A DNA stretch of 21,250 nucleotides from positions 1-21,250 of the IMG/VR virus record IMGVR_UViG_3300046492_000604; one strand, written 5' to 3'. Shown here piece after piece: positions 1 to 21,250 of the stretch; within the stretch, counting starts at the first letter, position 1, and every line of letters starts with the position of its first letter. The translations under genes and the position numbers were made by a program. The notes beneath the pieces are model-generated. The model worked only from the letters and a program-made list of their open reading frames with translations. It was not told where the DNA came from and did not search any database. The stretch is from a virus.

Positions 1-297
1 TTAAGATTTCTTTCCTTCTTTTAATTCCTGAACTTCCTGCTGTAGTACATTGACTTGCCCCTCGAGGACTTTCAATCTGATTTCGTTGATTCTACTTTGT
101 GTATCCTGCGAAGAGCGGATATCTTTGATATCGCCCTTCAATTGGAAATAGCCTGTCATTACAGAAACAACAATACTTATGGTGCTGGCTATGGTTACTA
201 TCATATTCTTGATGGTAATGCCCCTGATCTCTCTGTGTTCAAATGTTGTCATGGTGTAGATGTTGATGAGTGGGTGGGAGAAGCGCAAACGATACAT
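1..297 (-). CDS. Small single-pass membrane protein, possible lysis accessory (holin/spanin-like)
   Basis: Encodes 98 aa from the ATG at 297, or 83 aa from the ATG at 252 ('MTTFEHREIRGITIKNMIVT'). The shorter form looks more natural because the first 15 residues are of a different character. One hydrophobic helix (about 31-50 of the long form, 'MIVTIASTISIVVSVMTGYF') is followed by a charged coiled coil ('INEIRLKVLEGQVNVLQQEV') and a basic end. This is the plan of small lysis-region membrane proteins found after tail genes. No partner endolysin lies inside the window. The stop codon occupies the first three bases, so the gene is complete. The function is inferred from topology and place only. 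Confidence 0.55.
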   Translation of the reverse strand: MYRLRFSHPLINIYTMTTFEHREIRGITIKNMIVTIASTISIVVSVMTGYFQLKGDIKDIRSSQDTQSRINEIRLKVLEGQVNVLQQEVQELKEGKKS

Positions 298-556: not shown

Positions 557-1231
557 CTAATTAACAAACTCATCGATAAGTCTTTTCCAATTAAAATAAC
601 CTGCTTCTGAAAGATGAGTGCCGTCGATTGTTAAATCAGAATCTATTTTGTCACCTTTTAAAAAGTTAGGATAAAGGTTTATGAAAGTTACTCCTTTCAT
701 TAAGCAGATGCTTTTCGCTTCTTCATTGTAGCCAATAATTTTATTATTTAAACTATCTATGCCAGTTGGTAAAACAGATTCTACATAAATAATAGTGGCT
801 GGCGATTTAAGCCTTACTAAATCTATCATCGATACAAGATGCGCTATTACGGTATCGGCACTTATGTTATACTTAAAATCATTTACCCCAAACTCAAGAA
901 ATAACTTTTTAGGCTTGCGATTGATGAGTTTATTTATCACTTGAATTCCATTCTCTGATATACTGCCGGCGAATCCCATGTTTTTAACAAAAGGGTTATT
1001 AAACTCCTTTTTAACGTTAAATCCTTCTGTAATACTGGTTCCTAAAAATATAATCTCATTATCGTTTGGTTTAGACTTAAAAAAATCAGCCCATCTTTCC
1101 TCTTGAGTTATTACATGATGAAAAAGCTCCCAGTGGGTATAATAAAATCGTTTCCCAATAAAAAACAGTATGAATAGTATATTTAATGAAATGGAAGATA
1201 TTAATAATACCTTTTTTAAACTATTAGACAT
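557..1231 (-). CDS. Membrane-anchored SGNH/GDSL-type hydrolase
   Basis: Encodes 224 aa. One hydrophobic anchor (about 8-26, 'VLLISSISLNILFILFFIG') precedes a complete SGNH domain. Block I is 'IIFLGTSITEGF' with S66, where GTS replaces GDS, as is common in acylhydrolases of this clan. Block II is 'NMGFAGSIS', block III 'EFGVNDF' with N117, and block V 'DGTHLSEAGY' with D203 and H206. All four catalytic positions are present, so the enzyme should be active. It would sit outside the inner membrane and deacylate an ester, perhaps O-acetyl groups on envelope glycans. The gene is AT-rich compared with the spike. It starts 20 bp downstream of the spike, whose enzyme class it shares. A lysis-related esterase role is possible. 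Confidence 0.82.
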   Translation of the reverse strand: MSNSLKKVLLISSISLNILFILFFIGKRFYYTHWELFHHVITQEERWADFFKSKPNDNEIIFLGTSITEGFNVKKEFNNPFVKNMGFAGSISENGIQVINKLINRKPKKLFLEFGVNDFKYNISADTVIAHLVSMIDLVRLKSPATIIYVESVLPTGIDSLNNKIIGYNEEAKSICLMKGVTFINLYPNFLKGDKIDSDLTIDGTHLSEAGYFNWKRLIDEFVN

Positions 1232-1241
1232 GCCGTAAATT

Positions 1242-1264
1242 TAACATTATTTAAGTTAATGTTA
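1242..1264. repeat. AT-rich hairpin at the tail-spike stop codon
   Basis: TAACATTA (1242-1249) and TAATGTTA (1257-1264) form a perfect 8-bp stem with a 7-nt loop. It straddles the tail-spike stop codon and ends about 10 bp before the next ATG. It could lower read-through into the SGNH gene or modulate its translation. There is no GC-rich stem and no clear U tract, so a strong terminator is unlikely. Confidence 0.4.
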
Positions 1265-3854
1265 CTTCTTTAAACGTTCCTGTTCCGACATACGAACCTC
1301 GCACAAACTGTCTTACTGGTGTGCTTGTGCTTGTCAAGGTTTGTTGGAATACGCCATTGTTTTTGAGTGTAATTAAAGAACCGTTAACTGGCCATCCATC
1401 ACTGGCATTCACGTAGTCTATAGTCATTCCATCTACCCAAGCAGTCCAAGCTTGAGAAAACGGTATCGAACCAAAATTGTTGCCAATGAAAGCCACTTGT
1501 GTCGGTAGCGGTTCCAAGATGAAAAAAGATTGCCAACCAGTAGCTGACCAACCAACTCTTATGTATAATTTTGTTTGGGCGGATCCAAAAGTAGCCAATT
1601 CTTGCCTGTACATATCATTGCTGAGATGGTGCGTTATCAAAAAACCATTTATTGGCCACCCATTTGCAATTTCCACATACTCGTATGTAATACCCTTTCG
1701 ATAAGCAGCGGGTAGTGCGGACGTTGTACGACCTGACTGTCCTAAATCAACGATATCTCCTCCTTTATAATAAATTGGAAATAATATCTCGTATGTTTTG
1801 CAAGCAATCAAGATCTTTAAAGACCGTCCTGGATGTATAAACTCATTAGGATAATTAGTAGGATCGTATGGGGCAAAGTAATCTTGGCCATTTCTTGCGT
1901 CCTGCCATAGAGCGTACAAATCCATAAAGCAGCAAGCGTATTTTCTTGCAAGGGTACTAAGCCCTTTATTATACTCTTCATTAAATATTTCTCCCTGATG
2001 CCCTTGGTGATCGTCTGTTGTAGTATTCATTGTACACAGTACGATAGCAAGTTTATCTTTAGTGAAATTTGAATTGCTACGAATGGTGCTAAGGCCGGTA
2101 TCCATTATATCAATGAGCTGTTTAGGTGTACTACCGTTAGTATCATTAATACCCCAGCGTAAAACAAGTACATCAGGAGCTACAGATAGATCATTTGCTA
2201 AATGGGTAGAAAGCCATTGAGCGGCGCTTTGCCCTCCCGAACCATGGTTTATAAAGTTTAATGCGGGTATATAATCTCTTAGCGCTAATGAATTCAATAT
2301 TTGATCTATTGCTGTATCGCTGCCATCGTCTGTGCCAGCCGTAGTACTATCGCCTGAAAAAACAATTTTCAATGTAGTGGGATTGGAGGCACTCATGTTT
2401 GCTTTTAGTTTTTTATGGAATGAACTCAGATACTCAGTGCCAAATATGTGCTGGTTGTTGTCTGCATAACTGTTTAATTGTTGCTTAACTGTATTGCCGT
2501 TCGGGCTATTTCGCAAAAATCTTATATCACCTTGTATTTTAGTGCCATATTTATTTGTCGGGATAGAGGTAACAAAAAAATCACCCACATCTTCGATTAC
2601 TTTCTCTGCTGCCAAAGCGGCGTTTACCGCCGCCGTATCATCCGTCACACCATCCCCAACAGCCCCGTAATCAACCCTGAAAGATTTAATCTGCCCCGAT
2701 GGTTCTGATGAGCCGCCCCCACTACCCCCTGAAGGTGCATTAATCCAATGCAGGTCGCCGTCGGTGTTGCTGTTTTTCGCTAATATTTGTCCGCTTGTGC
2801 CTCCCGAAGGAATCTTAAACAATCCGGTGATTTGTGCCTGTAGTTTTCCTAATGCTTGTAAAATGCTGTCGGTTGCCGATACTGCCGCGGCACTTCCAAA
2901 GCCAATACCGTTGAGTATTGCGTTTAACACCCGAGATACGGTAAAATATTTATTTGTAGTTCCTTCAGGTACAGCATCGGTTGTGCCGGGAGATGCAACA
3001 ATTTGAATGTATGCCGATCCGCTCCATCTGTATTCGTTATTGGTATCGGTAGTGATATAGATCTTTCCGGTTTCACCTGTTGCGGGCAGTGAGGCATAAT
3101 TGGCAGCCTCCAGTACATCATCAACATAACTTGGGAGCAGCGCCGACGCGATCTTTCCGCTGCCATCTAAGCCCGCGTAGCCGTTTGGGGTGTTTTTATT
3201 GTCGGTTTCTTCAAATTGTACACCCGAAGCTATCAGGGAAATTCCGGTACCCCAAATGCCGCCAGTCTTGGGGCCGAAAAAATAATAGGAAGATGTATTG
3301 ATATAAAAATCTCCATCGGTACCCAAACTGTTAGCGGGGTTTGTACTACCGTTTAATATGGTTTTGCCATTAGTGCCATTGGTCCCGTTTGTTCCGCTTG
3401 TGCCTTGTGGTCCTTGCGGTCCCGTTTGCATGGAAAATACCTGACTCCATACCCCTCCAGTCTTTTTGTAAAATATCCCGCTTACGGTATTTATAAAAGT
3501 ATCTCCGGTATTGCCGGTTGCAGTAGCCGGGGCGGTAGTGCCATACAATACAGTGGTATCTGTGGCGCCTCCTGTGGCAATGGTGTAAACAACAATCCAA
3601 ACACCTGCTATTTTTTGAGCGAAGGAGCCTGCGGCAGTATTGATAAATACATCGCCATTTTTACCGGTTGTATTTTGGGGGAGCACCGGGCCAAAGGTCA
3701 GGTTAGCCCCGGCATTAAGCCCCGAATTGATAAATTGAAGCAGCGTGGCAAAATCAAACTGGTAATCGGTATTATTACTGATCAGGATCGATTTGTCGGA
3801 GGCATTTATAGTTTCTGCTATCGGTAGCTCGCTTATTTTTTTATCGTTTGCCAT
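1251..3854 (-). CDS. Tail spike/fibre with SGNH esterase domain
   Basis: Encodes 867 aa. The N-terminus 'KKISELP' is typical of tail-attachment domains. Four modules of the form G-x-x-GD-x-Y/F-INT ... GG-x-W follow (about 64-92, 114-142, 178-207, 260-288). A short collagen-like run (GPQGPQG, then GTNGTNG) lies near 145-163. At 394-410, 'VDYGAVGDGVTDDTAAV' is the entry of a pectate-lyase-type spike, but no long beta-helix follows. An SGNH hydrolase comes instead: GDS (S503), G540 in 'NHGSGGQS', GIND (N570) and H674 in 'EFIHPG'. The C-terminus has two copies of a 'GWPxNGxLIT' receptor-knob module (about 724-780, 811-867). It probably removes acetyl or acyl groups from host surface glycans during adsorption. 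Confidence 0.85.
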   Translation of the reverse strand: MANDKKISELPIAETINASDKSILISNNTDYQFDFATLLQFINSGLNAGANLTFGPVLPQNTTGKNGDVFINTAAGSFAQKIAGVWIVVYTIATGGATDTTVLYGTTAPATATGNTGDTFINTVSGIFYKKTGGVWSQVFSMQTGPQGPQGTSGTNGTNGTNGKTILNGSTNPANSLGTDGDFYINTSSYYFFGPKTGGIWGTGISLIASGVQFEETDNKNTPNGYAGLDGSGKIASALLPSYVDDVLEAANYASLPATGETGKIYITTDTNNEYRWSGSAYIQIVASPGTTDAVPEGTTNKYFTVSRVLNAILNGIGFGSAAAVSATDSILQALGKLQAQITGLFKIPSGGTSGQILAKNSNTDGDLHWINAPSGGSGGGSSEPSGQIKSFRVDYGAVGDGVTDDTAAVNAALAAEKVIEDVGDFFVTSIPTNKYGTKIQGDIRFLRNSPNGNTVKQQLNSYADNNQHIFGTEYLSSFHKKLKANMSASNPTTLKIVFSGDSTTAGTDDGSDTAIDQILNSLALRDYIPALNFINHGSGGQSAAQWLSTHLANDLSVAPDVLVLRWGINDTNGSTPKQLIDIMDTGLSTIRSNSNFTKDKLAIVLCTMNTTTDDHQGHQGEIFNEEYNKGLSTLARKYACCFMDLYALWQDARNGQDYFAPYDPTNYPNEFIHPGRSLKILIACKTYEILFPIYYKGGDIVDLGQSGRTTSALPAAYRKGITYEYVEIANGWPINGFLITHHLSNDMYRQELATFGSAQTKLYIRVGWSATGWQSFFILEPLPTQVAFIGNNFGSIPFSQAWTAWVDGMTIDYVNASDGWPVNGSLITLKNNGVFQQTLTSTSTPVRQFVRGSYVGTGTFKEVTLT

Positions 3855-4620: not shown

Positions 4621-5904
4621 TCAAGGGCACATAGCCTCAGCTTCGGCTTGTTTGAAGCCATAGGCATATACTAAAGCAGCTATTTTGCTTTTTTGAGGAA
4701 TGGCTGATTGCAGAAGCTCATTGATGCTGTTTCCGGCCTTAATACCCGGGGTGTCATCGGCTGCTATCGCTGTAACCGGCACAATGTTCCAGTTGTTACC
4801 AGGATTTATATCCCTGTAAAAGCGACTAAAAATTTCGGCTAATGTTTCAGACAGATCAAGCCTGTCGGAGGCGGTATTGTCATTAAATTCCAGGATAGCT
4901 TGTTTCTTCTCACTTCCATTGCTTAGCCCCGATGATTTTTCGGCATTGATCAGCTCTTTGGGCACCGAAAAGCCTTTAATGATGCGGGCCTCAACAGATC
5001 GTTCGGTGGTTTCAAACAGCTTGTCGTTATTTTGAATAGGGTAGGCTTTGAACTCCGGTTTGGAGCTTTCGTCTTCATATTCGATAACGATAATTTTTTG
5101 CGCGCTTTTTGCTCCCTGAAACGCGCCGAGATCTTTTTCAAGCTGCGATGGTACATTGATACCAGTGTATTCATCAGCATCGGGCCGGGTATTTTCAGCC
5201 TCTTCGCGGCGCGACTGCATAAAAAGCATGGTTGATGGCAAAAAACCAGTGGTTACTTCACGGTTGTTGAAAATTTTGATCCCGGCCTCGGTTTCAAAAT
5301 CTTCCCATACCGAATCTGCTTCAATCAATGGGTAATCATCAACTTCGGGGTTAAAATAAAACAACTGGCCTTTATAATTTTCCCATCCGCCGGCAATGCG
5401 CACCTGCTCGCTAATTACTTCCGGGTCGGGATTATACCTGTCTAAAAAGGTGATCTTGCTGCGCATGATGTTTTTCCAGGTTTTGCGGCCCCAATCGCTG
5501 TACAATGCATATTTATCAGCTGTTTCCGGGTTATCGGTATCGCCCATGCGGATGTCCTCAAACTTTACATAGCTTACTGATGTGATCCTGAAGCTGGCGT
5601 TGTAATTTACATGAATACCAAAACCTGTGAATAGCGCTTTATCGGCAGCCAGAGCCTTTAATAATTTAGCGATAGTTAAGCCTTTGGAGTTGATCACCTG
5701 TTTGCCCAATTCTTTTTGTTCAAGCCCATTACCGGCTATAAATTTTGTCCGTTTGTTCCAGCAATCTTTTGCTGTTGGGGAGCCGGCTACCAACTCCAGC
5801 ATGCGTTGAGGGTAAGCATTATCCAGGTCATAATTAAGGATGCCGTAAGTTTGATTCGGCCTTACCAATATTCGCCGTTCAATTTGCGGGAGATAAGTTT
5901 TCAT
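4621..5904 (-). CDS. Portal protein
   Basis: Encodes 427 aa. The N-terminal part ('NYDLDNAYPQRMLELVAGSP' then 'KDCWNKRTKFIAGNGL', about 24-61) is the start I associate with Bacteroidetes phage portals. A helical, charged middle follows ('RNPD'-like 'LDRYNPDPEVISEQVRIAGG', and 'KDLGAFQGAKSAQKIIVIEY'). The clip/stem region contains 'RIIKGFSVPKELINAEKSSG' (about 310-330), the kind of motif seen in many portals. Length is normal for the family. Portals form the dodecameric ring at the unique vertex, through which DNA is packaged and to which the connector and tail attach. A connector-like protein follows, consistent with this call. Confidence 0.75.
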   Translation of the reverse strand: MKTYLPQIERRILVRPNQTYGILNYDLDNAYPQRMLELVAGSPTAKDCWNKRTKFIAGNGLEQKELGKQVINSKGLTIAKLLKALAADKALFTGFGIHVNYNASFRITSVSYVKFEDIRMGDTDNPETADKYALYSDWGRKTWKNIMRSKITFLDRYNPDPEVISEQVRIAGGWENYKGQLFYFNPEVDDYPLIEADSVWEDFETEAGIKIFNNREVTTGFLPSTMLFMQSRREEAENTRPDADEYTGINVPSQLEKDLGAFQGAKSAQKIIVIEYEDESSKPEFKAYPIQNNDKLFETTERSVEARIIKGFSVPKELINAEKSSGLSNGSEKKQAILEFNDNTASDRLDLSETLAEIFSRFYRDINPGNNWNIVPVTAIAADDTPGIKAGNSINELLQSAIPQKSKIAALVYAYGFKQAEAEAMCP

Positions 5905-6149
5905 ATCGAACCTCCTTGATCTGGGGTTTTAGCTTCCGCTGATTTGCGCTTATCATTAGTCTGTTCCATAACTCCCCCTTTAGAGGGCTGGGGGGCAAAC
6001 AACGCCGCTATATGCGGGTATCGTTGTAAATACCATTCGGCTTCTTCATCGCTTAAGTTTTCATTACTATGAATGGCTGCCGAACCGGGTGCAAATTGAT
6101 GTAGGCCAAGTTTAAGGATGTACTTTTTTTTCAGTGTGTCATTAGTCAT
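5901..6149 (-). CDS. Small conserved phage protein upstream of portal
   Basis: Encodes 82 aa of unknown function. The informative core is 'HQFAPGSAAIHSNENLSDEEAEWYLQRYPHIAALF' spanning residues 17-51 (key parts 'FAPGS', 'HSNENLSDEEAEWYL' and 'RYPHIAALF'). I recall this from short proteins encoded just before the portal in Bacteroidetes phages. The ends look less conserved: the first codons come from a GTCATTA repeat, and the segment 'PQPSKGG' is written by a CCCC-TTTAGAGGG element inside the gene. Its stop overlaps the portal start by 4 bp (ATGA), implying translational coupling. A structural or assembly role with the portal is the natural guess. Confidence 0.6.
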   Translation of the reverse strand: MTNDTLKKKYILKLGLHQFAPGSAAIHSNENLSDEEAEWYLQRYPHIAALFAPQPSKGGVMEQTNDKRKSAEAKTPDQGGSI

Positions 6150-6929: not shown

Positions 6930-8138
6930 CTATGCCGACAGATAAAACAGCTCGTTAGCAAATTTGAAGTTTACGGCTGCTTTCATGCGGGCCTTCATAC
7001 GTACCACGTTATCGTTTGTGTAAGGTTTCAGATACACGGTTGATAATTCTGAAGCATCGCCCAGCAAGTCAACACCAAGAAATAAGTTGGATGATCTTGC
7101 ACCTAAAATGGTGTTGGCCTGCCAGTGGTTCATGATCTGAAGCGGAATACCCAGGTAATCCATCTTTTTCATATCGGTAAATGCATTGATAACATTAAGC
7201 GCTTTGTTGGCTTGTGCCTGTGCATAAGCATAACCTACGTGTAAGGGGATCTGTAAGTTAAAGTCTTCCTGGATCCTGTCGGCAGGGTCAAGCTGGGCGT
7301 ATACACTGCCTAATACCTGTAATACATTGCTTACGTTAATATAGTTTACTGTAGCAGCGGTTGCAGTACCGGTAAAAGTTGCAGGTTTACGGCTGTTAAC
7401 TTCGTTGTAATTGCGCACCAGTTTAAATGAAGTAGCGCTGGCAATCTGGATAAAATATGATTGGCCCTGAATAGCGATGCCTGGCGCACCATTAGTTGTG
7501 TCCTTGCTGGTGCCGGTTACGCCTGTAATGGTAACAACGTCGCCATCGGCAAGGGTTGAAGTATCGGCTATGGTTACAATGCCGTTTGCATCAATTGCTG
7601 TTGCCGCCAATGAGGTAGCTGGTTTGCTTAAACCTACTTTATAAACGCCGGATGCCGCTGCAATAGAAGGAAGTAAACCAGGGAAATCGGCGGTAAAAGC
7701 TGCTTCTTTAGTGGCGCTTTTACCAAGCCAGTATAAACGTTCGTTAGCTATCTGGATTTTGGTTAAATAGCGCTGCACCATAAAGTCCGAAAGGTCAACC
7801 ACGCCTTCGTAATCCATAAAGGCACCGGGTTTTAGGGCCTGAGCTTCCCAGCTTTGGGCAAGCTTATCCCATTGTTCCTGTTTCATGAATTCATAAACTA
7901 CCGGGTCAAGATAGCTTTCGGTTTGGTGAGCTGTTGTACCCTGATCGGTAAAGATGCCCGAAGGATTTTGCAAAATAATGTCGTCGTCGACATCAAGAAT
8001 TACTTTGCGGGCTTTTACGTCGTTAATTACTGTGAGCAGGCCACGTTTCACCGAATCGGCTTCGAGTAATGTGCTTGCCATAAATCCTGCCAGCGCTTCG
8101 CCGGCGTAGGTGTTGTTTGTAAATGTAAATTGAGCCAT
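6930..8138 (-). CDS. Major capsid protein (HK97-like) with an inserted beta domain
   Basis: Encodes 402 aa. N-terminal features ('YAGEALAGFMASTLLEADSV', 'GLLTVINDVKARKVI', 'TTAHQTESYLDPVVYEFMKQ') and C-terminal features ('FTDMKKMDYLGIPLQI', 'NDNVVRMKARMKAAVNFKF') match my picture of Bacteroidetes phage HK97-fold capsids. Its position directly after the protease-scaffold gene agrees. Between about 171 and 268 is a Thr/Ala/Gly-rich insert ('GIVTIADTSTLADGDVVTIT', 'SYFIQIASATSFKLVRN'). It resembles the small beta-barrel module often annotated as FCCH-like in phage proteins, and is probably exposed on the capsid surface. The upstream gap (8139-8252) holds a hairpin and AT-rich leader only. Confidence 0.82.
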   Translation of the reverse strand: MAQFTFTNNTYAGEALAGFMASTLLEADSVKRGLLTVINDVKARKVILDVDDDIILQNPSGIFTDQGTTAHQTESYLDPVVYEFMKQEQWDKLAQSWEAQALKPGAFMDYEGVVDLSDFMVQRYLTKIQIANERLYWLGKSATKEAAFTADFPGLLPSIAAASGVYKVGLSKPATSLAATAIDANGIVTIADTSTLADGDVVTITGVTGTSKDTTNGAPGIAIQGQSYFIQIASATSFKLVRNYNEVNSRKPATFTGTATAATVNYINVSNVLQVLGSVYAQLDPADRIQEDFNLQIPLHVGYAYAQAQANKALNVINAFTDMKKMDYLGIPLQIMNHWQANTILGARSSNLFLGVDLLGDASELSTVYLKPYTNDNVVRMKARMKAAVNFKFANELFYLSA

Positions 8139-8252: not shown

Positions 8253-8849
8253 TTAGGAAGCGATAGCTTTTTTAACCGCGTTCTTAGCGATCTCACTTTG
8301 TGGCGCGAAGAATGGAGCAGGCTCTGAATGAGCTTTATTGCTGCGTTTTGAACCTTCAGGTATAAAAGTTGATTTGATCTCGTTTTTTACCTCAGTACGC
8401 GTTTTTTGCAGGCGATTGTTAGCTTCCTCGAGCGCAGCGCGGGCTTCGGTTAATAAAGCATTTTGCGCATGTAAACGGGCTTTTAGCTGTTGTATGCGGT
8501 TTTGTACATCTACAGGCTTTTTAGCGGCTTTAAATTGGCTTTCAGGTAAATCCTCGTCGTCATCTTCTGCTTCGGGTGTTTTTTCAGGATCGGCAGGTAT
8601 TACGCTTTGGATCTTTCCTTGTTGAATATCCAGTTGTTTGCCATCGGCACAAGTGTAGGTGTCGGAAATGGCTGGCGAGGTCATGTTTTCGTCCTGGTAA
8701 ACTTCGGCGCCTTCTTCAATTTGACCGGTGTGGTGCAGCGTGCCTTTATCGGTGATGGTTTGCTTGTTTACTACTTTCTTAAAAAAGTTCATGATCTTGT
8801 CTAATACCGATGTGGTTTTCTCGATAAATTCTTTGTTTTCGATGTTCAT
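8253..8849 (-). CDS. Possible separately initiated scaffold protein nested in the protease gene
   Basis: An in-frame ATG at codon 204 (8849) follows an A-rich leader (CATAAAAAATAACAACAGC), as good as any start signal in this window. The linker just before it is low-complexity Asn/Ser. Initiation here would give a 198-aa scaffold of acidic linker plus coiled coil. That mirrors the lambda C/Nu3 and similar protease-scaffold overlaps. It is an inference from sequence only; cleavage of the full-length protein could give the same fragment. Confidence 0.4.
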   Translation of the reverse strand: MNIENKEFIEKTTSVLDKIMNFFKKVVNKQTITDKGTLHHTGQIEEGAEVYQDENMTSPAISDTYTCADGKQLDIQQGKIQSVIPADPEKTPEAEDDDEDLPESQFKAAKKPVDVQNRIQQLKARLHAQNALLTEARAALEEANNRLQKTRTEVKNEIKSTFIPEGSKRSNKAHSEPAPFFAPQSEIAKNAVKKAIAS

Positions 8850-9458
8850 GCTGTTGTTATTTTTTATGTTTAAGATTTTGTTAATGCATCGCTGGTAAAC
8901 CGCGGGGGCTGTACTTGTATAATTTTTGATAAGGGCACAGTTGGTAATTTCTGTGCTGTAATCCTCAATTTGGTCAATAAAACCAAGATCAAGGGCCTGA
9001 TCGGCACTCATCCAGGTGACGGAATTGATCAAACTGTTTACTGTAACTCCGTCTAACCCGGATTTGTCCATGTAGATCTGCGCCAGGCGCTCCTGAACTA
9101 CATTCAACATCTGCACATCTTTTAAAAGTTCATCGGCATTGCCGCCGGTGCCAACCATGGGTTTGTGGATCATGAGCAGCGCGTATTTGCTCATTACTAC
9201 CTGCCGGCCGCCCATTGCGACAACTGATGCTGCCGAAGCGGCCAGCGCGTCGATATAGGTAGTAACTTTACCGGGATATTTTTTTAGCAGATCATAAATG
9301 GCGATGGCATCAAAGGCACTGCCGCCTACCGAACTGATGTGTACTTCAACATCGCTGCCGGCCGCTGCCTCAAGCTGGGTTTGTATGTAAGCTGATGATA
9401 AGTTGCCCGAGCCTATGCAGTCGGTTTCGGTGTCATATAAATAAATTTTGTAGCTCAT
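8253..9458 (-). CDS. ClpP-like head maturation protease fused to scaffold domain
   Basis: Encodes 401 aa. Residues 1-170 are a ClpP/S14-type protease. They include the substrate loop 'SVGGSAFDAIAIYDLL' (43-58), the nucleophile S75 in 'DALAASAASVVAMGG', H98 in 'LMIHKP', and the closing 'SADQALDLGFIDQI'. By manual alignment the usual third acidic residue falls on V147 ('SVTWMSADQA'), so the triad may be altered. Residues 204-401 look like a scaffold, with an Asp/Glu-rich linker ('EAEDDDEDLPE'), an Ala/Leu/Glu coiled coil (about 325-365), and a basic C-terminus. It processes and organises capsid subunits during head assembly. The major capsid gene is next, as expected. Confidence 0.88.
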   Translation of the reverse strand: MSYKIYLYDTETDCIGSGNLSSAYIQTQLEAAAGSDVEVHISSVGGSAFDAIAIYDLLKKYPGKVTTYIDALAASAASVVAMGGRQVVMSKYALLMIHKPMVGTGGNADELLKDVQMLNVVQERLAQIYMDKSGLDGVTVNSLINSVTWMSADQALDLGFIDQIEDYSTEITNCALIKNYTSTAPAVYQRCINKILNIKNNNSMNIENKEFIEKTTSVLDKIMNFFKKVVNKQTITDKGTLHHTGQIEEGAEVYQDENMTSPAISDTYTCADGKQLDIQQGKIQSVIPADPEKTPEAEDDDEDLPESQFKAAKKPVDVQNRIQQLKARLHAQNALLTEARAALEEANNRLQKTRTEVKNEIKSTFIPEGSKRSNKAHSEPAPFFAPQSEIAKNAVKKAIAS

Positions 9459-10028: not shown

Positions 10029-10029
10029 A

Positions 10030-10089
10030 GGGGTTAGGGGTTAGGGGTTAGGGGTTAGGGGTTAGGGGTTAGGGGTTAGGGGTTAGGGG
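10030..10089. repeat. Perfect heptamer tandem repeat, 8.6 copies (GGGGTTA / TAACCCC)
   Basis: Eight perfect gggttag units run from 10031 to 10086, with partial copies at both ends. The array fills the gap between the tape measure stop and the next gene, and touches that gene's ATG at 10028. The plus strand is G-rich and could form a quadruplex. The transcript carries the C-rich version, in a position where most starts in this window have A-rich leaders. Confidence 0.95.
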
Positions 10090-10119: not shown

Positions 10120-12468
10120 TCAAAGGTTTACGCGGTTGATTGTTTGGGCAAGTATATTTTGTTGATTGTTTATATCTTTAACATCAACATAAACAGGAGG
10201 GAAGTTATTGATCATTTGATAGGCAAGTGTATTGGCCAGATCTTTCACATCATTAACCGGTTGATTATAATACCGGTTAGCATTACCGCCGTCAGTAAAT
10301 ATACCGCCTATGGCATAACCTCGGCTGGGATTTGACATGGAGAAATCACGACCACCGTGTGCCACATTAATAGCACTTACCAGGTTGCGGGCCCATGGAT
10401 TGCGCATGGCTTCGGATACCACGACTGCTTCGCCTGAGCGAAGGTAGGCGTTGGTATTATCAGTACGACTATACCCCGGTAATAATGCGCCCCGGCCATC
10501 TGACTGATAGTGCAAACCGCCTTTAGCATATTGCGGTGGTTTTTGGGCCACGATAGTGGCAACCTGTATGGCTGTTGAAGCAATTATGCCGGGTATTACA
10601 AACGGTGCCAATATGCCGGTTTGTGAAGTAGCCTTGGTAACTGCCAGTGCACCGTTGATAACAGCCTGCAATATGGATGCCTTTTGCTCTGCTTTAAAAG
10701 CTTTGATTTTCTCGGCAGCTTCTTTTTTCTGGTATTTATCTTCAATAGCCTGGCGCTGTGTGTTGGTTAGGTTTTTATTGCCTAACTCGGCTGCCTTATC
10801 CTTTTCGAGGCCTTTTATTTTGGCATCGCTTTGGGTTTTGATATTGTTTTGGATAATAGAAAATGCCTTATCTGATACCTGTTGTGCACTTTGCAGTGCA
10901 AACTCTGTACGTTGTTGCTCGTATTGTTGTGTTAACTGGGTAATATCCTTCTGCTTTTGATCTTCGAGAGCCTTGACCTTCTCAGCATTACCGGCTACCA
11001 GGCTTATCTCGTAAGTGTATTTATCATCGATCAATTTTTTTTCGGCATTTAACTTTTCGCCAGGCAGCAAAGCTTTATCAACATTTTTTTGATCTTTTTC
11101 CATTTTATCTTCATGCTGATGGGCGTCTATCATCGCCTGAATTTGCTTTTGAGCTTCGGCAAAATCATTCTTATTGAAAAACTGGATCTTATCGCCAATA
11201 CCAAGATGGAATTTCTGTTGAAGTTGCTCGCTTTTTTTGTTGTAATTTTCCTGGCTGATCAGCTTTTTATCCAGTTGTTTATTCAGTAGAGCGAGTTCGG
11301 TGTCGTAGTTCTGCTTATCGAGTTCAATCTGCTTGGCAAAATCAATTGCTTTGGCTTGAAGAATTTCGGAGGAGCGGATTTGATCAATTGTCGGTTTTTC
11401 TACTTTCTTATGAGGAATAATGGGGCCGCCGTTATTTGTTTTATCTGAACCGTTTTCATTTAACTTTTTGCCGGATAAAATTAGTTTTTGCCTTGCTTCA
11501 ATTTCCTGATATAGTTTTTCATTCTGATCATTTAATAGTTTCGAATCTGTTGATAAATCATAGATTATTTTGTCGCTGGTGTCAAGATCCTTAGCAAGGA
11601 GTCCTGAACTACGGGCCAATCCTTTGATTGTTTCTCCTTCGTCGTGAACAGGATTTTTTAAAGTATATTCATATTGGCTATCAGCAGCTTTTTTCTTTTC
11701 AAGTATATCAAGATTTTTCTTACGCTCGTCGGCAATTTTTTGATTGTTTTCTAATGCTCTACCGGCATTTACGGTAATCCTGCTTTTCGCTGCTTCCGCG
11801 TAGGCCGTTGCCAGAATTTGTTCTTTTAAGTTTTTATATGATTCTGCTGCAGCATTGTTCAAAATAGCTTCATCGCTTATGTTTTTAAATGTTTCAGGCC
11901 ATTGATCTTTCAATGCGGCTACAGCTTTCTTTTTTTCGGCCATTGACAGCGTGTGGCTTTGTGTGGCCCGGTACAGAGCAGTTAAGTTAGTGATCTCATT
12001 CTGTGCTGCCTGGTCTCCTTTTAATTTGGTTTGTATGAGCGATTCGGTAATAATTGCGTTATCCTTCATTGCCTTACCAAGGGCCGAGAGCGTGGTTTGT
12101 CCCTTGAGCATGTCGGCCACCCAATCGATAATCACATCGCTGTAACTGGCAAGCAAAGTGATTCCCACGGAGATAAGAGAGTTCCAGGATAAAAAGGATG
12201 AAGCCAACTCTTTCAAAATGTTTTTAGGCTTTTGCCCAGATGCAGCAAGTTCCTTATTTTGTTCGTTTAGCTTTTGCATAGCGTCTACCACTTCCGGTAG
12301 TTTTTCACCGATGGCTTTAATACCTTCTTTTAAACCATCCGAAAACTCGGGAAATTTGCTATTTACTCCGATAACCGCTTTTCTTAATTCATTTAAAGCA
12401 TCAGTGTATTTTTTTGTCTTCTCGATATCGTCATTGCTGATGTCGAGCTTATAGTTGTAATTTGTCAT
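10120..12468 (-). CDS. Tape measure protein
   Basis: Encodes 782 aa. A hydrophobic stretch lies at about 91-121 ('FLSWNSLISVGITLLASYSD'). A long charged, Lys/Glu/Gln-rich coiled-coil region follows at about 130-600. A second Ala/Ile-rich hydrophobic region at about 600-642 ('GILAPFVIPGIIASTAIQVA') comes next. The tail is Gly-rich and contains 'PPQYAKGGLHY' and 'LRSGEAVVVSEAMRNPW'. This hydrophobic, coiled-coil, hydrophobic, KGG plan is characteristic of phage tape measure proteins. The protein fills the tail tube, sets its length and is ejected with the DNA. By the usual rule of about 0.15 nm per residue it implies a tail of roughly 115-120 nm. It ends the first tail block and is followed by a tandem repeat rather than by the distal tail genes. 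Confidence 0.9.
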   Translation of the reverse strand: MTNYNYKLDISNDDIEKTKKYTDALNELRKAVIGVNSKFPEFSDGLKEGIKAIGEKLPEVVDAMQKLNEQNKELAASGQKPKNILKELASSFLSWNSLISVGITLLASYSDVIIDWVADMLKGQTTLSALGKAMKDNAIITESLIQTKLKGDQAAQNEITNLTALYRATQSHTLSMAEKKKAVAALKDQWPETFKNISDEAILNNAAAESYKNLKEQILATAYAEAAKSRITVNAGRALENNQKIADERKKNLDILEKKKAADSQYEYTLKNPVHDEGETIKGLARSSGLLAKDLDTSDKIIYDLSTDSKLLNDQNEKLYQEIEARQKLILSGKKLNENGSDKTNNGGPIIPHKKVEKPTIDQIRSSEILQAKAIDFAKQIELDKQNYDTELALLNKQLDKKLISQENYNKKSEQLQQKFHLGIGDKIQFFNKNDFAEAQKQIQAMIDAHQHEDKMEKDQKNVDKALLPGEKLNAEKKLIDDKYTYEISLVAGNAEKVKALEDQKQKDITQLTQQYEQQRTEFALQSAQQVSDKAFSIIQNNIKTQSDAKIKGLEKDKAAELGNKNLTNTQRQAIEDKYQKKEAAEKIKAFKAEQKASILQAVINGALAVTKATSQTGILAPFVIPGIIASTAIQVATIVAQKPPQYAKGGLHYQSDGRGALLPGYSRTDNTNAYLRSGEAVVVSEAMRNPWARNLVSAINVAHGGRDFSMSNPSRGYAIGGIFTDGGNANRYYNQPVNDVKDLANTLAYQMINNFPPVYVDVKDINNQQNILAQTINRVNL

Positions 12469-12541: not shown

Positions 12542-13048
12542 TTAATTAAACTTATTTAATTCTTTATTAGCACACATGTCCCATCTTAAATAGAAATTGC
12601 TATCCGCAAATACGTAATTTGATGGTAAAGCGGTTGGAGTAGAAGCTTTTTTATTAACTACTTTCCAATTTGGGCTTATCGAATAAGCATAGAGCAATCC
12701 TTCCTTGTTGTTATAAATGAAGGGGAACATTTTGTAGTCGACATAGGTGCCTATAAAAGATGATCTGTATTTACTTAAACTGTCATTTACAATCGCCTCT
12801 CCCAACGATATAAATTTAAAATCAGATGAAGTATTTGACTTGATCAATCGCAATAAAGGCAATTCAACCCCTTTTGCAGGACTAACAAAATATTTAAGTG
12901 CGTAAACTTTATCACCTTTGTTGAAGTGATTAACCTTGTAATTATAATAGTGAGCCATTATCAGTTTTCGATTGGTAACGCCCAAAAACGCGATGATTAT
13001 TAAAATAGCTGTAATAGCAAGCATGCTATATTTCTTTTTATTTGACAT
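12542..13048 (-). CDS. Membrane-anchored hypothetical protein, paralogue B (moron candidate)
   Basis: Encodes 168 aa. After 'MSNKKKY' comes one hydrophobic helix (about 8-24, 'MLAITAILIIIAFLGV'), then a soluble domain collinear with the preceding gene. The matches are 'VNHFNKGDKVYA', 'NDSLSKYRSSFIGTY', 'YAYSISPNWK', and 'NKELNKF' at the C-terminus. Only 43 bp separate the two genes, so they are probably co-transcribed. Overall identity is low to moderate, which suggests an old duplication with both copies retained. The function is unknown. The single membrane anchor and position favour an envelope role in the host cell over a virion role. A tail-assembly accessory role cannot be excluded. Confidence 0.75.
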   Translation of the reverse strand: MSNKKKYSMLAITAILIIIAFLGVTNRKLIMAHYYNYKVNHFNKGDKVYALKYFVSPAKGVELPLLRLIKSNTSSDFKFISLGEAIVNDSLSKYRSSFIGTYVDYKMFPFIYNNKEGLLYAYSISPNWKVVNKKASTPTALPSNYVFADSNFYLRWDMCANKELNKFN

Positions 13049-13091
13049 GGAGATTTGTATTTTGATTAAATAACAGTGCAGTTTTTAAAAT

Positions 13092-13631
13092 TTACATCTT
13101 GATTTTTCTAAAGGTATTAAGTTCTTTATCTGTCATCAGGTGTCCCCATACATAAAGGGGACCATCCTCAAATTCGTATCCCGCCGGCGCACCGGTAAAG
13201 CCTTTCTTGATTAACGCTTTCTTGTTTGTAGTGATTGAAAAGAAAAGCATAGGATAATATTCATTACCTTCTATGCTCTGAATTTCATATCCGGTATAAG
13301 TACCTATACAAGCGGTTTTATATTTGCATAAACTATCGCTACTTATTGACCATGCAGAGCTCGCCATAAATGGTTTTCCTTTCGAATTTCCGCTTATAGG
13401 CTTAACCTTTCTAAACAACATTAAATTATTTGATTCATTAACAATAAAGTCATTAGCATATAACTTATCATTTATTTTAAAATGATTGTGCCTGAGATTA
13501 AAATAATAGAGGTCTAAAAAGCTTTTGTTACACCAAAATGCTACTAAGAGTATTATTACAACGGAAATGCTGCTTATTAACCAGATGGTTCTTTTCTTAT
13601 TTTTTTGTTCAGAATCTTTTGCTTTTAACAT
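13092..13631 (-). CDS. Membrane-anchored hypothetical protein, paralogue A (moron candidate)
   Basis: Encodes 179 aa of unrecognised family. The N-terminus is Lys-rich (residues 1-14), followed by one hydrophobic segment (about 15-34, 'TIWLISSISVVIILLVAFW'), and then a soluble domain of about 140 aa. This fits a signal anchor with the domain outside the inner membrane; no lipobox is evident. Shared with the next gene are 'NHF' then 'DKLYA', 'DSLCKYK', 'IGTYTGYE', a 'SITTNKK' strand, and a C-terminal 'DKELNTF'. The two are clearly tandem paralogues. The gene is visibly more AT-rich than the tail genes around it. Membrane-bound non-structural genes inside a tail operon are typical of lysogenic-conversion or superinfection-exclusion genes, but no function can be read from the sequence. 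Confidence 0.75.
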   Translation of the reverse strand: MLKAKDSEQKNKKRTIWLISSISVVIILLVAFWCNKSFLDLYYFNLRHNHFKINDKLYANDFIVNESNNLMLFRKVKPISGNSKGKPFMASSAWSISSDSLCKYKTACIGTYTGYEIQSIEGNEYYPMLFFSITTNKKALIKKGFTGAPAGYEFEDGPLYVWGHLMTDKELNTFRKIKM

Positions 13632-13674
13632 GATAACTTAGGTTTTGCTAATTTTATTGGTAAAGATAAGTAAC

Positions 13675-13725
13675 GGCTTAAATAAATCAAATATGTTAAT
13701 GCAATCTTTTTATAAAAGCTATTAA
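13675..13725 (-). promoter_or_regulatory. Candidate Bacteroidetes-type promoter for the inserted gene pair
   Basis: On the minus strand a CATATTTG (13695-13688) resembles the Bacteroidetes -7 element TAnnTTTG. A TTTT about 18 nt upstream stands in for the -33 TTTG. The predicted start would lie roughly 50 bp before the first inserted gene. Both boxes are imperfect. The 143-bp gap is very AT-rich and holds no other feature I can name. An own promoter would fit independent, lysogenic expression. Confidence 0.3.
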
Positions 13726-13774: not shown

Positions 13775-15826
13775 TTACCCAAGTTTTACCAGTTCTACTT
13801 TGGTTGGCTGTCCTTTACGCCAGCTATCAATTTTATTGATGTAATAATAGCAGCTATCTTGTTCCAGATAAACCGGAATGAGTAAATCAAGCTCAAGGAT
13901 ATCGCGCGGGGTTAGTAAAAAATAACGCACTACCTTTTTGGTTTGCGTTAGTATCCTTTCCAGTTGAGGATAATAGCTTGTTTTTAAGCCGGGCTGCATA
14001 CCAGTTTTACCCGGCATATCTTTGAAGCAAAGATTATAGTTGCCATCGGGTTTGTAAAAGTAGGGTACTGATATGATATCGTTAACGGTAATGTCATTAG
14101 CCGCATCGCCGTCAGTAAACTTTATGCTGGTATTATCGCCGTAATTGCGAAGGTCGATCTTTTGATCAACCAGGATCCGTGGCGATGTGCTAATGCTGAA
14201 ACTCTCATCATCGCCGGTGGTGTCGGCTTTTTTTATTTGGACAATAGTGCCGCCAATGTACGGGCGGTTGAATGTTGGCGCAAACTGGCTTTCAAATAGA
14301 TCTGCAGTGGCAGGCAAGGTTTTATCTGGCACGGTGATCTGTGCATTGGCGAAGTCTTTTGGTATAATATTATCATCCTCTTTGTATTTCATGTAGTTTG
14401 TTTGTGCATAGCCCCCCAATTGAAATGAAATGGTTTTGCCCTGGTCAATACATTTGCCCGTCCAATTTTTAGCGACAGGAATATTGGCGACAATATCTGC
14501 GAAAGAGTTAAATGATATTGTTTTGGTACTGTTATCTGTTTGGCAAACAATGCCGAAGCGTTGCAATGTGTCTTTAAGCAAATCTTTTTGACTTATATCC
14601 GGAAAAATGCGTTCGCATTGGATTTCCTGACCGTAAAGCACAGGTTTTTGATCAGCAACGAACTGAAATTTTGCACCTTTTTTAATGATCACCCGGGTGT
14701 TGTAACGGTGCAGGTGAAATGACACAAACAACGATTCGCCTTTTACCAGCTCAAAATCATGTGTTATTTTGATGTTCTTAAATTCCTCAAAACGATCGCG
14801 TGCGCCAGGCGGAGTTGATTTCTGGTCAAAATTTAATCTAATTGCTTCCTGCTGACTTTCTATACCATTAACATCGCGATAATTGATAAATAGCTCAAAA
14901 TAACCATCGTTGCCGGTGCCTGCTATGCCGGCCATGGTCATGTCAAATATTACACTGGCTGTACCATGAATGGCTTGGGTGGCGTGGTATTCCTGAAAGC
15001 CAATTGGCATAGTGATATCGGTAGGGTCATGTGCATTCAGACCTAACGGATCGCCATCTAACACTATATCTGAAGTTGATGTATACGACAATGAGGCCGA
15101 CTGGCCCAAGCCGTCAACAGCGTTTTGCAGATCGGTACCATGCTCAAAACTATCGTTAGCAAACTGGCAAATGAGCAATGGATACAATGGATTGTTAAGC
15201 AGGGAGCCTTTAGCTTTATATCCAGCTGATTTTATTATCAGGTCGATAGCTGTTTTAATAAAAAAACCAGGGCGCTGGTTACGTACGTTTATGGGCTCGG
15301 TAAAATCAACTTCTCCAATAAAACCATAATCAACCACCGGCCAGATCCAGCCGCCGGTATTTGTTTGCGATGTAACCACATTTTGAACATTCCACTTATG
15401 ATCATATAATTGCCAAAGTAAGGTTTTACCAAAATTAGTCCATTGACTCGTGCTGTCGCCCATATCATAAATCTTACCGTCAATGGCGTCAAAAAAGTCA
15501 ACATTGCCGCTTAATATCGTTATGTTAGCCATATCCTGCTCAATGCTGTTGAGTACAGCAAGGCCGTATGGAATGATCTCGAGCCCATCCTGTATGATTT
15601 TTGCCTGGTAGTTATCATAAGGAAGGGTTGAGGCAAAAGCTATATCATCAGGGAAGCCCAGTATTTGCCGGTTACGCTGCGTTAGCGGCAGCTTAAACTG
15701 GTTGCTGGTATTGCCCTGCTGGTTTTTAACCTCGGCCAGGTTATTGATCTGAAAAGTAAGCGCAATAGGGCTATCATCAGTTAAATCAACCAGTTGGTCA
15801 TTAATATAAAGTTGTATCTGGTTCAT
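13775..15826 (-). CDS. Baseplate hub / tail-associated structural protein
   Basis: Encodes 683 aa. The N-terminus ('IQLYINDQLVDLTDDSPIAL' then 'NQQGNTSNQFKLPLTQRNRQ', about residues 4-53) is a signature I recall from large tail-hub proteins of Bacteroidetes phages. In these the first strands pack against the distal tail ring. A middle region (about 330-480) has 'LLKDTLQRFGIVCQTD' and 'TISFNSFADI', typical of a gp27/Tal-like hub fold that reads a surface and then rebuilds local coordinates. The C-terminal part (610-683) is beta-rich ('YFLLTPRDILELDLLIPVYL', 'SCYYYINKIDSW'). No peptidase or lysozyme motif was found. It lies between the distal-tail-like gene and the two inserted membrane proteins. 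The role is inferred from pattern and position. Confidence 0.6.
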   Translation of the reverse strand: MNQIQLYINDQLVDLTDDSPIALTFQINNLAEVKNQQGNTSNQFKLPLTQRNRQILGFPDDIAFASTLPYDNYQAKIIQDGLEIIPYGLAVLNSIEQDMANITILSGNVDFFDAIDGKIYDMGDSTSQWTNFGKTLLWQLYDHKWNVQNVVTSQTNTGGWIWPVVDYGFIGEVDFTEPINVRNQRPGFFIKTAIDLIIKSAGYKAKGSLLNNPLYPLLICQFANDSFEHGTDLQNAVDGLGQSASLSYTSTSDIVLDGDPLGLNAHDPTDITMPIGFQEYHATQAIHGTASVIFDMTMAGIAGTGNDGYFELFINYRDVNGIESQQEAIRLNFDQKSTPPGARDRFEEFKNIKITHDFELVKGESLFVSFHLHRYNTRVIIKKGAKFQFVADQKPVLYGQEIQCERIFPDISQKDLLKDTLQRFGIVCQTDNSTKTISFNSFADIVANIPVAKNWTGKCIDQGKTISFQLGGYAQTNYMKYKEDDNIIPKDFANAQITVPDKTLPATADLFESQFAPTFNRPYIGGTIVQIKKADTTGDDESFSISTSPRILVDQKIDLRNYGDNTSIKFTDGDAANDITVNDIISVPYFYKPDGNYNLCFKDMPGKTGMQPGLKTSYYPQLERILTQTKKVVRYFLLTPRDILELDLLIPVYLEQDSCYYYINKIDSWRKGQPTKVELVKLG

Positions 15827-15834
15827 GAGGTTTA

Positions 15835-15849
15835 GTAAATGTTATTTAC
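15835..15849. repeat. Short perfect inverted repeat ahead of the hub gene
   Basis: GTAAAT (15835-15840) and ATTTAC (15844-15849) are perfect inverted copies separated by 3 nt, ending 8 bp upstream of the next start codon. It could hinder or tune initiation of the hub-like gene, or be chance. The surrounding 100-bp gap otherwise shows nothing clear. Confidence 0.3.
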
Positions 15850-15926
15850 CGAAGTGTTGCTTAAGTTATTGATGGTGATCATTACTACGGTATTGATAAC
15901 ATCAGTTTTGTGAAAGAATAAGCCCG

Positions 15927-19470: not shown

Positions 19471-20730
19471 TTAAATCAATCCGTGTAATGCGCCTGATTG
19501 TTGGTGAGTGTGCTGATACGGAAGGCGTGACTGAAGTTTTCCGGCACTATGTATCTTTAGTTTATTAAGAGCGATATACCTTAACGGATCTATTAAGTGG
19601 TTCCATGAATCAACCGGCTCATTAATGGTTTTGCCTGTTGCATCTGTACGCCATTTGAAACGATTAAGCTCATTGCGCAGATTTACACTATTGCGGGTTA
19701 CATTTATTTTGTAGCGCTTTAGGATATCAATAGAATTTTTAACGCTATCGGCACCCTTTTTTGCTGGGGTAATGCGCCATCCGAGGCGTTTCAATTCTTC
19801 TATTGATTTTGGTTCGGCGCTATCAGCAATAATTTCGTTATTGAGACTTACGCCCGCCTCTTTTAACTTTGCTGATATATCCGTATTGGTTAAACCTGTT
19901 TCATAAAATAACTCATTAGCCCAGAGCTCGCCGTTTTGCTGGTATAGTTCAATGCATCCGGTTTCGTCGTTGGTAAAACCAAAATCTAAACCCAGGGCTA
20001 TCAAACGCGCATCGACCGGAATGGATTCGCAGATATACCAGTTATCAAATATAAGTCCGGTTATTTTACCGGTTAAGCCACGGGCGTATACCTTCCATAA
20101 TTCAATGTCAACAGCTTTTAGCGCTTCTATCTTATCCCGTACTTCCTGAGCCAAAAACGGGTTGTGCCTGTGGTCGGATACAATGAGTTGTATTCCCGGT
20201 TTGCCGATCAGGTGCTCATGCGCCCAGAAACCTGTATTGGGGTTATAATCAATGAAAATACGCTTTTTAGTACGAAGGGCAAGTTCTGTATATACGTCCC
20301 ACGTTAAACCGTTGGCTTCATTTATAAACAGATAATCGCGCTTGCCGGATTTAGCGTCCTGACTGTTGTCGTAACTTTTAAACTCGATTATGCTGCCATT
20401 CATGAATTCGAAAATACGGTCGCTTTTATTGTAGTTTTTAATTTTTGCCTGTAATACCGGCGATGAGTTGAATATATTCAATGCATCGCGCATTGCGCCG
20501 GCTTTAAGGTTTGGGATATCCTGTCCAACTATAGTTATTACCTGTTTTGGGCTTTCGCCTGCAATGCAAAACAGCGCCTGTTCAATGGCAAATGTTTTAC
20601 CGCTGCTGGTACCGCCCTGGTTAATTACTATATGCGCGGTTGACTGATAATTTTGTTTGAACAGGATAGAACACTGAAAGCCTTCAGGCTCCTTTAATGT
20701 AATATCGGGGCTTGTTTCTTCATTGGTCAT
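19471..20730 (-). CDS. Terminase large subunit (packaging ATPase/nuclease)
   Basis: Encodes 419 aa, a normal length for a PBSX/Terminase_3-type large subunit. The N-terminal ATPase carries a Walker A motif GGTSSGKT at residues 39-46. The Walker B motif with its catalytic Glu is YLFINEAN (133-140, E138). A probable coupling segment, DYNPNTGFW, follows at 161-169. The C-terminal RNase H-like nuclease domain begins at LGLDFGF (247-252, D249). Further acidic residues are D303 in 'IIADSAEPKSI' and D381 in 'LIDPLRYI', so the usual metal-binding triad is present. The protein drives ATP-dependent packaging and cuts the DNA. It follows the small subunit, and no truncation is visible. Start ATG at 20730. 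Confidence 0.95.
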   Translation of the reverse strand: MTNEETSPDITLKEPEGFQCSILFKQNYQSTAHIVINQGGTSSGKTFAIEQALFCIAGESPKQVITIVGQDIPNLKAGAMRDALNIFNSSPVLQAKIKNYNKSDRIFEFMNGSIIEFKSYDNSQDAKSGKRDYLFINEANGLTWDVYTELALRTKKRIFIDYNPNTGFWAHEHLIGKPGIQLIVSDHRHNPFLAQEVRDKIEALKAVDIELWKVYARGLTGKITGLIFDNWYICESIPVDARLIALGLDFGFTNDETGCIELYQQNGELWANELFYETGLTNTDISAKLKEAGVSLNNEIIADSAEPKSIEELKRLGWRITPAKKGADSVKNSIDILKRYKINVTRNSVNLRNELNRFKWRTDATGKTINEPVDSWNHLIDPLRYIALNKLKIHSAGKLQSRLPYQHTHQQSGALHGLI

Positions 20731-20779: not shown

Positions 20780-21250
20780 TTATAGTTGTACATCTTTTTC
20801 GCTGTCGGCAGGGGGAGGGCCGGAGTTGAAGATCTCCACCGTTAACTTGTTTCCGGCTTCTGTGTTGGTTGGTGATGGCTCGTATTTCTCGTTCCATCCC
20901 ATATTTTTTAAGGCGAACATCGCCCCGGTTGTGTTTTGATGCAAATGAGCTTCATAACAGGCTTCTACACGTAATATCCCTTGTTTAACAACAGGTGCAA
21001 ACCTGCCGTTCTGTATATAATCGTTAAACTCCTGCCGGCTGTTAAAGCCAAGGGCAAGGGCCAGCCCTGACAGGGTTGCCGGCTCAGGTTCACGGTCCCA
21101 AACTTTTTGTTCAATAGTTTCTGCATTGTCTTTACTGTTTTTTATCGGTTTTTGTTCAAGGTGATATTTGCCCTGTATGCGGACGAAATACTTGTCAATG
21201 AGCCGCTCAACCTGGGCCGCGTCATTAAAGGAAGATAGATCGGGTTTCAT
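20780..21250 (-). CDS. Terminase small subunit (DNA-packaging protein)
   Basis: Encodes 156 aa if the ATG at the window edge is the true start. The reading frame could continue beyond the window, so the N-terminus is uncertain. The central segment, about residues 58-80 with 'TLSGLALALGF' followed by 'RQEFNDYI', is the helix-turn-helix-like stretch seen in small terminase subunits of Bacteroidetes and other phages. The Asp/Glu/Pro-rich tail after 'NMGWNEKYE' is also typical. Small terminases bind the packaging site on phage DNA as oligomers and hand the DNA to the large subunit. The next gene on the same strand, 49 bp downstream, is the large terminase, which strongly supports the call. The family assignment is by motif and context. 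Confidence 0.8.
   Translation of the reverse strand: MKPDLSSFNDAAQVERLIDKYFVRIQGKYHLEQKPIKNSKDNAETIEQKVWDREPEPATLSGLALALGFNSRQEFNDYIQNGRFAPVVKQGILRVEACYEAHLHQNTTGAMFALKNMGWNEKYEPSPTNTEAGNKLTVEIFNSGPPPADSEKDVQL

Follow-up and report, generated by a model that had tools for sequence, protein, structure and literature searches.

Variable predicted envelope proteins linked to the tape measure N-terminus in a chromosomally fixed phage-like element of Mucilaginibacter: candidate immunity proteins

Gene organisation of the window

The stretch of DNA analysed, hereafter the window, is an entire IMG/VR record of 21,250 bases (IMGVR_UViG_3300046492_000604), whose own host is probably Mucilaginibacter, judging from its relatives. 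The gene order is terS, terL, three small or medium-sized tail genes, a hub-like gene of 683 aa (hereafter the hub), a pair of small genes (A and B), the tape measure protein (TMP) gene, a small gene, a ClpP protease gene and the genes for a probable capsid, a probable portal and a fibre. A structural set derived from Caudovirus is present, namely TerL, TerS, ClpP protease, tail proteins and lysozyme. The main features are the following:

20780..21250 (-): terS, first gene of the structural operon (GP3_package, E 2.5e-8)
19471..20730 (-): terL (Terminase_3C, E 6e-15)
13775..15826 (-): hub-like tail protein of 683 aa, bordering the slot on its upstream side
13092..13631 (-): B (B179, 179 aa), slot family 0, gene 1 of the cassette; predicted N-terminal anchor (TM-like segment 13-42) and soluble domain
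12542..13048 (-): A (A168, 168 aa), paralogue in slot family 0, immediately upstream of the TMP gene
10120-12468 (-): TMP (tape measure), 782 aa
10849..12468 (-): variable N-terminal part of the TMP, about 540 residues, column conservation 0.25-0.39; partner of the cassette by covariation
10120..10848 (-): conserved C-terminal part of the TMP, about 240 residues, column conservation 0.89, with the only TM-like segment of the TMP (residues 618-642)
8253..9458 (-): ClpP-like prohead protease (E 3e-27)
6930..8138 (-): probable major capsid protein (MCP), from its position and 98% conservation
4621..5904 (-): probable portal (weak Pfam match, E 0.08)
1251..3854 (-): tail fibre with a GDSL-like domain
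1..297 (-): small conserved terminal protein (cluster c4), last gene of the window

No toxin family was recognised in the TMP of the window by Pfam and PHROG profile searches. Elsewhere in the window, an AT-rich ORF of 224 aa (G+C 0.31) with an N-terminal anchor lies after the fibre gene at 557-1231 (-), with no dyad of the kind described below; this spot is occupied by other genes in relatives, including an acyltransferase-like cluster, and constitutes a second variable site. The gene of 82 aa at 5901-6149 (-), between the probable portal gene and o195, has the top dN/dS of the element among close relatives (0.37 and 0.28). The gap between o701 and the hub (15827-15926) measures 0.1 kb in the window vs 0.57-0.67 kb in many relatives, and the larger gap contains no clear ORF in L003, L006, L007, L008, L009 and L014. 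Short CCCCTAA repeats are found at 10029-10053, immediately upstream of a 79-aa gene.

A pair of predicted membrane-anchored paralogues

A sequence-only reading of the locus had singled out A and B as an adjacent, collinear and AT-rich pair, each with one N-terminal anchor, interrupting a run of large tail genes. This description holds, as the pair does lie between the 683-aa tail gene and the TMP gene, the two paralogues align from end to end with 32% identity and 52% similarity (E 7e-16), the motifs pointed out at the time, i.e., NHF..DK.YA, DSL.KY, IGTY and KELN.F, are all invariant between them, and their G+C (0.33 and 0.32) is below that of the hub (0.42) and the TMP (0.41). The AF2 model of A (pLDDT 92) comprises one helix of TM length (3-25), a second helix (27-39) and a beta domain; here and below, TM segments and signals are predictions from crude hydropathy and pattern scans.

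The view that the pair matches no recognised family was likewise borne out, with no fitting family in Pfam, PHROG or PADLOC profile searches and no PDB or viral fold match to the model of A in Foldseek; within these searches, neither homology nor a fold match to known exclusion or immunity protein families was detected. B and the capsid protein had zero matches among 50,697 phage records. The dN/dS of the pair, 0.18-0.20, indicates that it is maintained.

The host element in Mucilaginibacter

A hub alignment search returned 58 genome loci, nearly all from Mucilaginibacter, plus 68 viral contigs. The element was matched in 89 of 150 Mucilaginibacter genomes, mostly in single copy and in two copies in a few, a proportion not to be read as a true prevalence, as genome completeness is not given. 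Nine genomes read on both flanks revealed a common chromosomal setting, with a run of host genes upstream, including a GNAT, an RRM protein and an Omp85-like protein, and a YCF48-like gene downstream in six of the read stretches; the same host flank was found in almost all genome loci having enough upstream sequence. Between the host borders lie terminase, structural, holin-like and lysozyme genes, and no integrase, repressor or replication genes were seen in the ORF lists read there. In two genomes devoid of the hub (G008 and G009), the site retains terS, a whole or truncated terL and the terminal small gene, remnants implying that the element was once present and was lost through internal deletion. 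A mobile prophage is ruled out by the fixed locus together with the deletion remnants at these two emptied sites.

The distances of terL, o239 and o701 follow those of the host flank genes (Mantel r 0.75-0.88); those of TMP residues 1-230 track them little or not at all (Mantel r 0.16-0.23), all these values retaining some effect of relatedness, which is not fully removed. When the window is compared with its nearest relative, most dN/dS values of structural genes fall in the range 0.02-0.17. From the fixed locus, the co-divergence with host genes and the purifying selection, we conclude that the element is a domesticated phage-like element, GTA- or PBSX-like, vertically inherited at one fixed locus.

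Despite its extreme conservation, the probable capsid protein does not follow the host genes in its similarity (Mantel r 0.04-0.09). Two close elements, L017 and L135 (terL dS 0.04), have a sharply diverged tract centred on the hub, the TMP and the capsid (hub dS 0.81), which looks like a recent recombinational module exchange.

The hub-TMP slot and its cargo families

Across 89 non-redundant loci, the slot between the hub and TMP genes contains 0-5 genes, with a G+C usually below that of the hub. The cargo belongs to four mutually unrelated families, whose predicted TM anchors, lipoboxes or signal peptides indicate membrane-anchored, lipidated or secreted proteins:

Family 0: 54 proteins, including the pair of the window
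Family 1: secreted
Family 2: lipoproteins
Family 3: secreted, about 300 aa

The presence of the pair in relatives, a comparison suggested by the earlier reading, proved variable, with many slots holding other families or nothing. In some elements, the slot is shorter than 300 nt and without cargo, which means that the cargo is dispensable in those elements. Searching 400 family genomes gave 61 matches to family 0, spread over 33 genomes; 59 are no more than 6 kb away from the hub, and the remaining two lie together on a different contig in a single genome. No Pfam or PADLOC family was found for families 0-3, the PHROGs search having covered the window pair only. The AF2 model of family 1 is confident (pLDDT 91), and Foldseek returned nothing solid for it, the PsbP-like match being weak (E 0.015, TM about 0.3). 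Lipoprotein genes on the opposite strand are present in the slots of L042, L054, L112, L031, L098, L100, L101, L076, L082 and L126; opposite-strand slot genes include some relatives of family 2 and some TPR proteins.

Promoter and dyad operator of the cargo genes

As suspected, the cassette has a promoter sequence of its own upstream of B, overlapped by a dyad:

13661-13691 (-): Bacteroidetes-type promoter TTTG-N19-TATCTTTA, ending 30 nt upstream of the start of B
13644-13664 (-): candidate operator with the dyad TTTACCAATAAAATTAGCAAA; it overlaps the -7 element and resembles the Bacteroidetes LexA box CTAA-N5-TTAG

The pattern TTTG-N17-21-TAnnTTT[GA] occurs upstream of 56 of 104 cargo genes vs 0-4% of structural genes; as this relaxed pattern was chosen post hoc, after the window site had been seen, the structural-gene and shuffle controls matter. 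The enriched form is TAnnTTT[GA], and no enrichment was observed for the strict Bacteroidetes promoter TAnnTTTG. After the promoter, the dyad TTTACYAAN5TTAGYAAA is found in members of all four cargo families, with counts of 68 in 89 slots, 9 in 58 terS upstream regions and 0-2 for every other gene of the element. It is strong before the cargo, and weak before terS and in a minority of terS regions, where more matches appear in relatives if one further mismatch is allowed. The cargo genes have a predicted promoter of their own together with a putative, SOS-box-like operator that is also found before terS.

The dyad CTAA-N5-TTAG was established by EMSA as a Bacteroidetes LexA box, assigned to Sphingobacteriaceae, in which both half-sites matter (Sanchez-Osuna et al., 2021, PMC8565304). 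The dyad of the element is alike, with cargo sites mostly bearing CCAA in one half-site (63 CCAA/TTAG vs 17 CTAA/TTAG), so that binding of LexA is uncertain. Genome scans with the dyad matched genes named from their sequences as radA, dinB, splB-like, umuD-like and LexA-like repressor genes. We reject a role of the dyad as a common promoter element, since it has one to a few matches per genome, mostly at slot or SOS-type genes.

Association of the cargo with the TMP N-terminus

In three lineages (L044, L084 and L088), the TMP gene is relocated between terL and o239 and the hub-TMP slot is closed; each of these relocated TMP genes has one cargo gene directly upstream, of families 3, 1 and 2. 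The cargo is, from such arrangements, associated with the TMP itself and not with the position of the slot.

Among lineages with diverged hubs (n=60), the nearest neighbour in TMP residues 1-230 predicted the cargo family with 87% accuracy, compared to 70% for the TMP C-terminus, 45-63% for the controls (hub, o79, terL, o701, o146, o239, Clp and MCP) and 33% for shuffled labels, relatedness being again not fully removed. Within families, the similarity of the cargo covaries with that of the TMP N-terminus when the hub is controlled for (partial r 0.34, p 0.003 in family 0; partial r 0.74, p 0.0002 in family 1). Linkage co-transfer alone would yield part of this covariation, but the hub, which is just as adjacent, and o79, which is close by, covary far less with the cargo than the TMP N-terminus does.

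TMP fragments were found in 19 of 89 slots, mostly as truncated N-terminal “ghosts” interleaved with the cargo, and in the readable ghosts the TMP type matches that of the cargo preceding them. In the clearest case (L061), the cargo shares 76% identity with the L112 cargo, and behind it comes a stretch matching the start of the L112 TMP at 77%; in L037, L040 and L057 ghosts of the window-type TMP come after family 0 cargo. The element L015 has a hub 92% identical to that of the window, but the TMP type and the lipoprotein of L120/L135. These patterns give good support to the view that the cargo and the TMP N-terminus form one exchangeable module, which recombination swaps while the backbone is inherited vertically. 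Modules that have been displaced can be seen retained upstream, as orphan cargo with a truncated TMP start.

Proposed function and alternatives

On balance, we favour reading the pair as polymorphic immunity proteins, i.e., injection-exclusion proteins, that have as their cognate partner the N-terminal portion of the adjacent TMP in a domesticated particle locus, the most likely effect of which would be to protect the cell from particles made by its relatives. What suggests immunity against kin particles is that unrelated envelope proteins, each paired with a TMP allele, accumulate as orphans. Kin particles would dock and their TMP would act in the periplasm and inner membrane, where the resident anchored or periplasmic cargo would bind the matching TMP and block or disarm it. 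Old cargo, when kept, would confer protection against older TMP types still made in the population, and the operator common to the cargo and terS would raise protection when DNA damage induces particle production. Particle production, binding, protection and induction by DNA damage are steps that we infer. There are precedents in long-tailed phages, where the TMP is the target or determinant of exclusion (HK97 gp15, TP-J34 Ltp and SNIPE), and in P22, where SieA acts on ejection proteins. The earlier proposal of an exclusion-type cassette under diversifying pressure stands as the best reading, while its status as a moron of a mobile prophage does not, given the fixed locus and vertical inheritance; the generic action on different incoming phages gives way to an association specific to the adjacent TMP N-terminal allele.

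The main rival accounts for the same genetics. The cargo would be a docking or licensing protein for DNA injection by the matching TMP, whereby gene transfer would be limited to kin and old cargo would keep the cell receptive to older particles. Such cognate entry factors would account just as well for the covariation, the relocation, the arrays of orphans and the targeting to the envelope, and siphophage TMPs do employ inner-membrane and periplasmic host factors. However, with an SOS-like co-regulation with the structural operon, dying producers would be receptive, which makes little sense, and several elements are entirely without cargo; we regard this possibility as unlikely. It is still less probable that the cargo proteins are ordinary superinfection-exclusion morons directed against unrelated phages, their TMP association being linkage: AT-rich islands, a promoter of their own, variable presence and envelope location would all be expected of morons, but the cargo relocates together with the TMP, the TMP N-terminus is a far better predictor of the cargo than the equally adjacent hub, and family 0 is restricted to the slot but for the two matches in one genome. 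A role in tail assembly, as TMP-specific chaperones or minor virion components, would fit the location just before the TMP and the covariation with it, but is very improbable for proteins with TM anchors, lipoboxes and signal peptides, belonging to four unrelated families, with a separate promoter sequence and sometimes encoded on the opposite strand, which can be completely absent or retained as orphans without their TMP.

Extending the immunity reading, we put forward tentatively that Mucilaginibacter might have a genus-wide, SOS-controlled particle of phage origin, whose TMP would make up, with the linked envelope proteins of several families, a polymorphic injection-immunity system, i.e., kin discrimination based on a GTA or killer particle and not on a secretion system.

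Comparison with known systems

Like HK97 gp15, TP-J34 Ltp and P22 SieA, the cargo consists of small proteins, here predicted to be envelope-anchored, in a phage-derived genome. The specificity of these three is linked to a tape measure or ejection protein, and here the candidate link to the TMP consists of covariation and co-relocation. The cargo has no detectable homology to them and, unlike them, comes in several families and in multi-copy arrays tied to the TMP allele, in a fixed inherited element.

CDI and Rhs loci are polymorphic toxin-immunity loci with orphan modules. The likeness lies in an exchangeable variable end with a cognate small protein, and in displaced truncated orphan modules beside the active one; the differences are that here variability resides in the N-terminal two thirds of the TMP, the partner gene is upstream, no toxin domain was recognised and the partner proteins are anchored or located in the periplasm. 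PBSX of Bacillus subtilis is a fixed, defective phage-like element under DNA-damage control. The present element is likewise fixed and phage-like, with a DNA-damage control suggested by the operator, but belongs to another phylum and has other genes.

With the GTAs, namely RcGTA, BaGTA and BhGTA, in the definition of Kogay et al. (2022, PMC9662315), the element has in common a structural cluster derived from Caudovirus, fully endogenised and co-diversifying with the host, and in both no integrase or replication genes are seen. The passages of that review consulted mention no polymorphic TMP-immunity module in the three GTAs.

Significance

A recurrent, hypervariable and TMP-linked slot in a chromosomally fixed element is beyond what a single sequence could reveal. 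No GTA of Bacteroidota was found in a limited literature search. If the immunity reading is true, specificity could be set by TMP alleles that have exchangeable immunity partners dedicated to them and arrays of orphans, as with colicins or CDI, and natural cargo-TMP pairs could be used to map the passage of the TMP across the inner membrane. It would also mean that, in a soil-dwelling genus of the Bacteroidota, a domesticated phage particle polices who receives its DNA or its damage, and strains that can be cultured would allow a direct test of how particles of the GTA and PBSX kind deal with self and kin.
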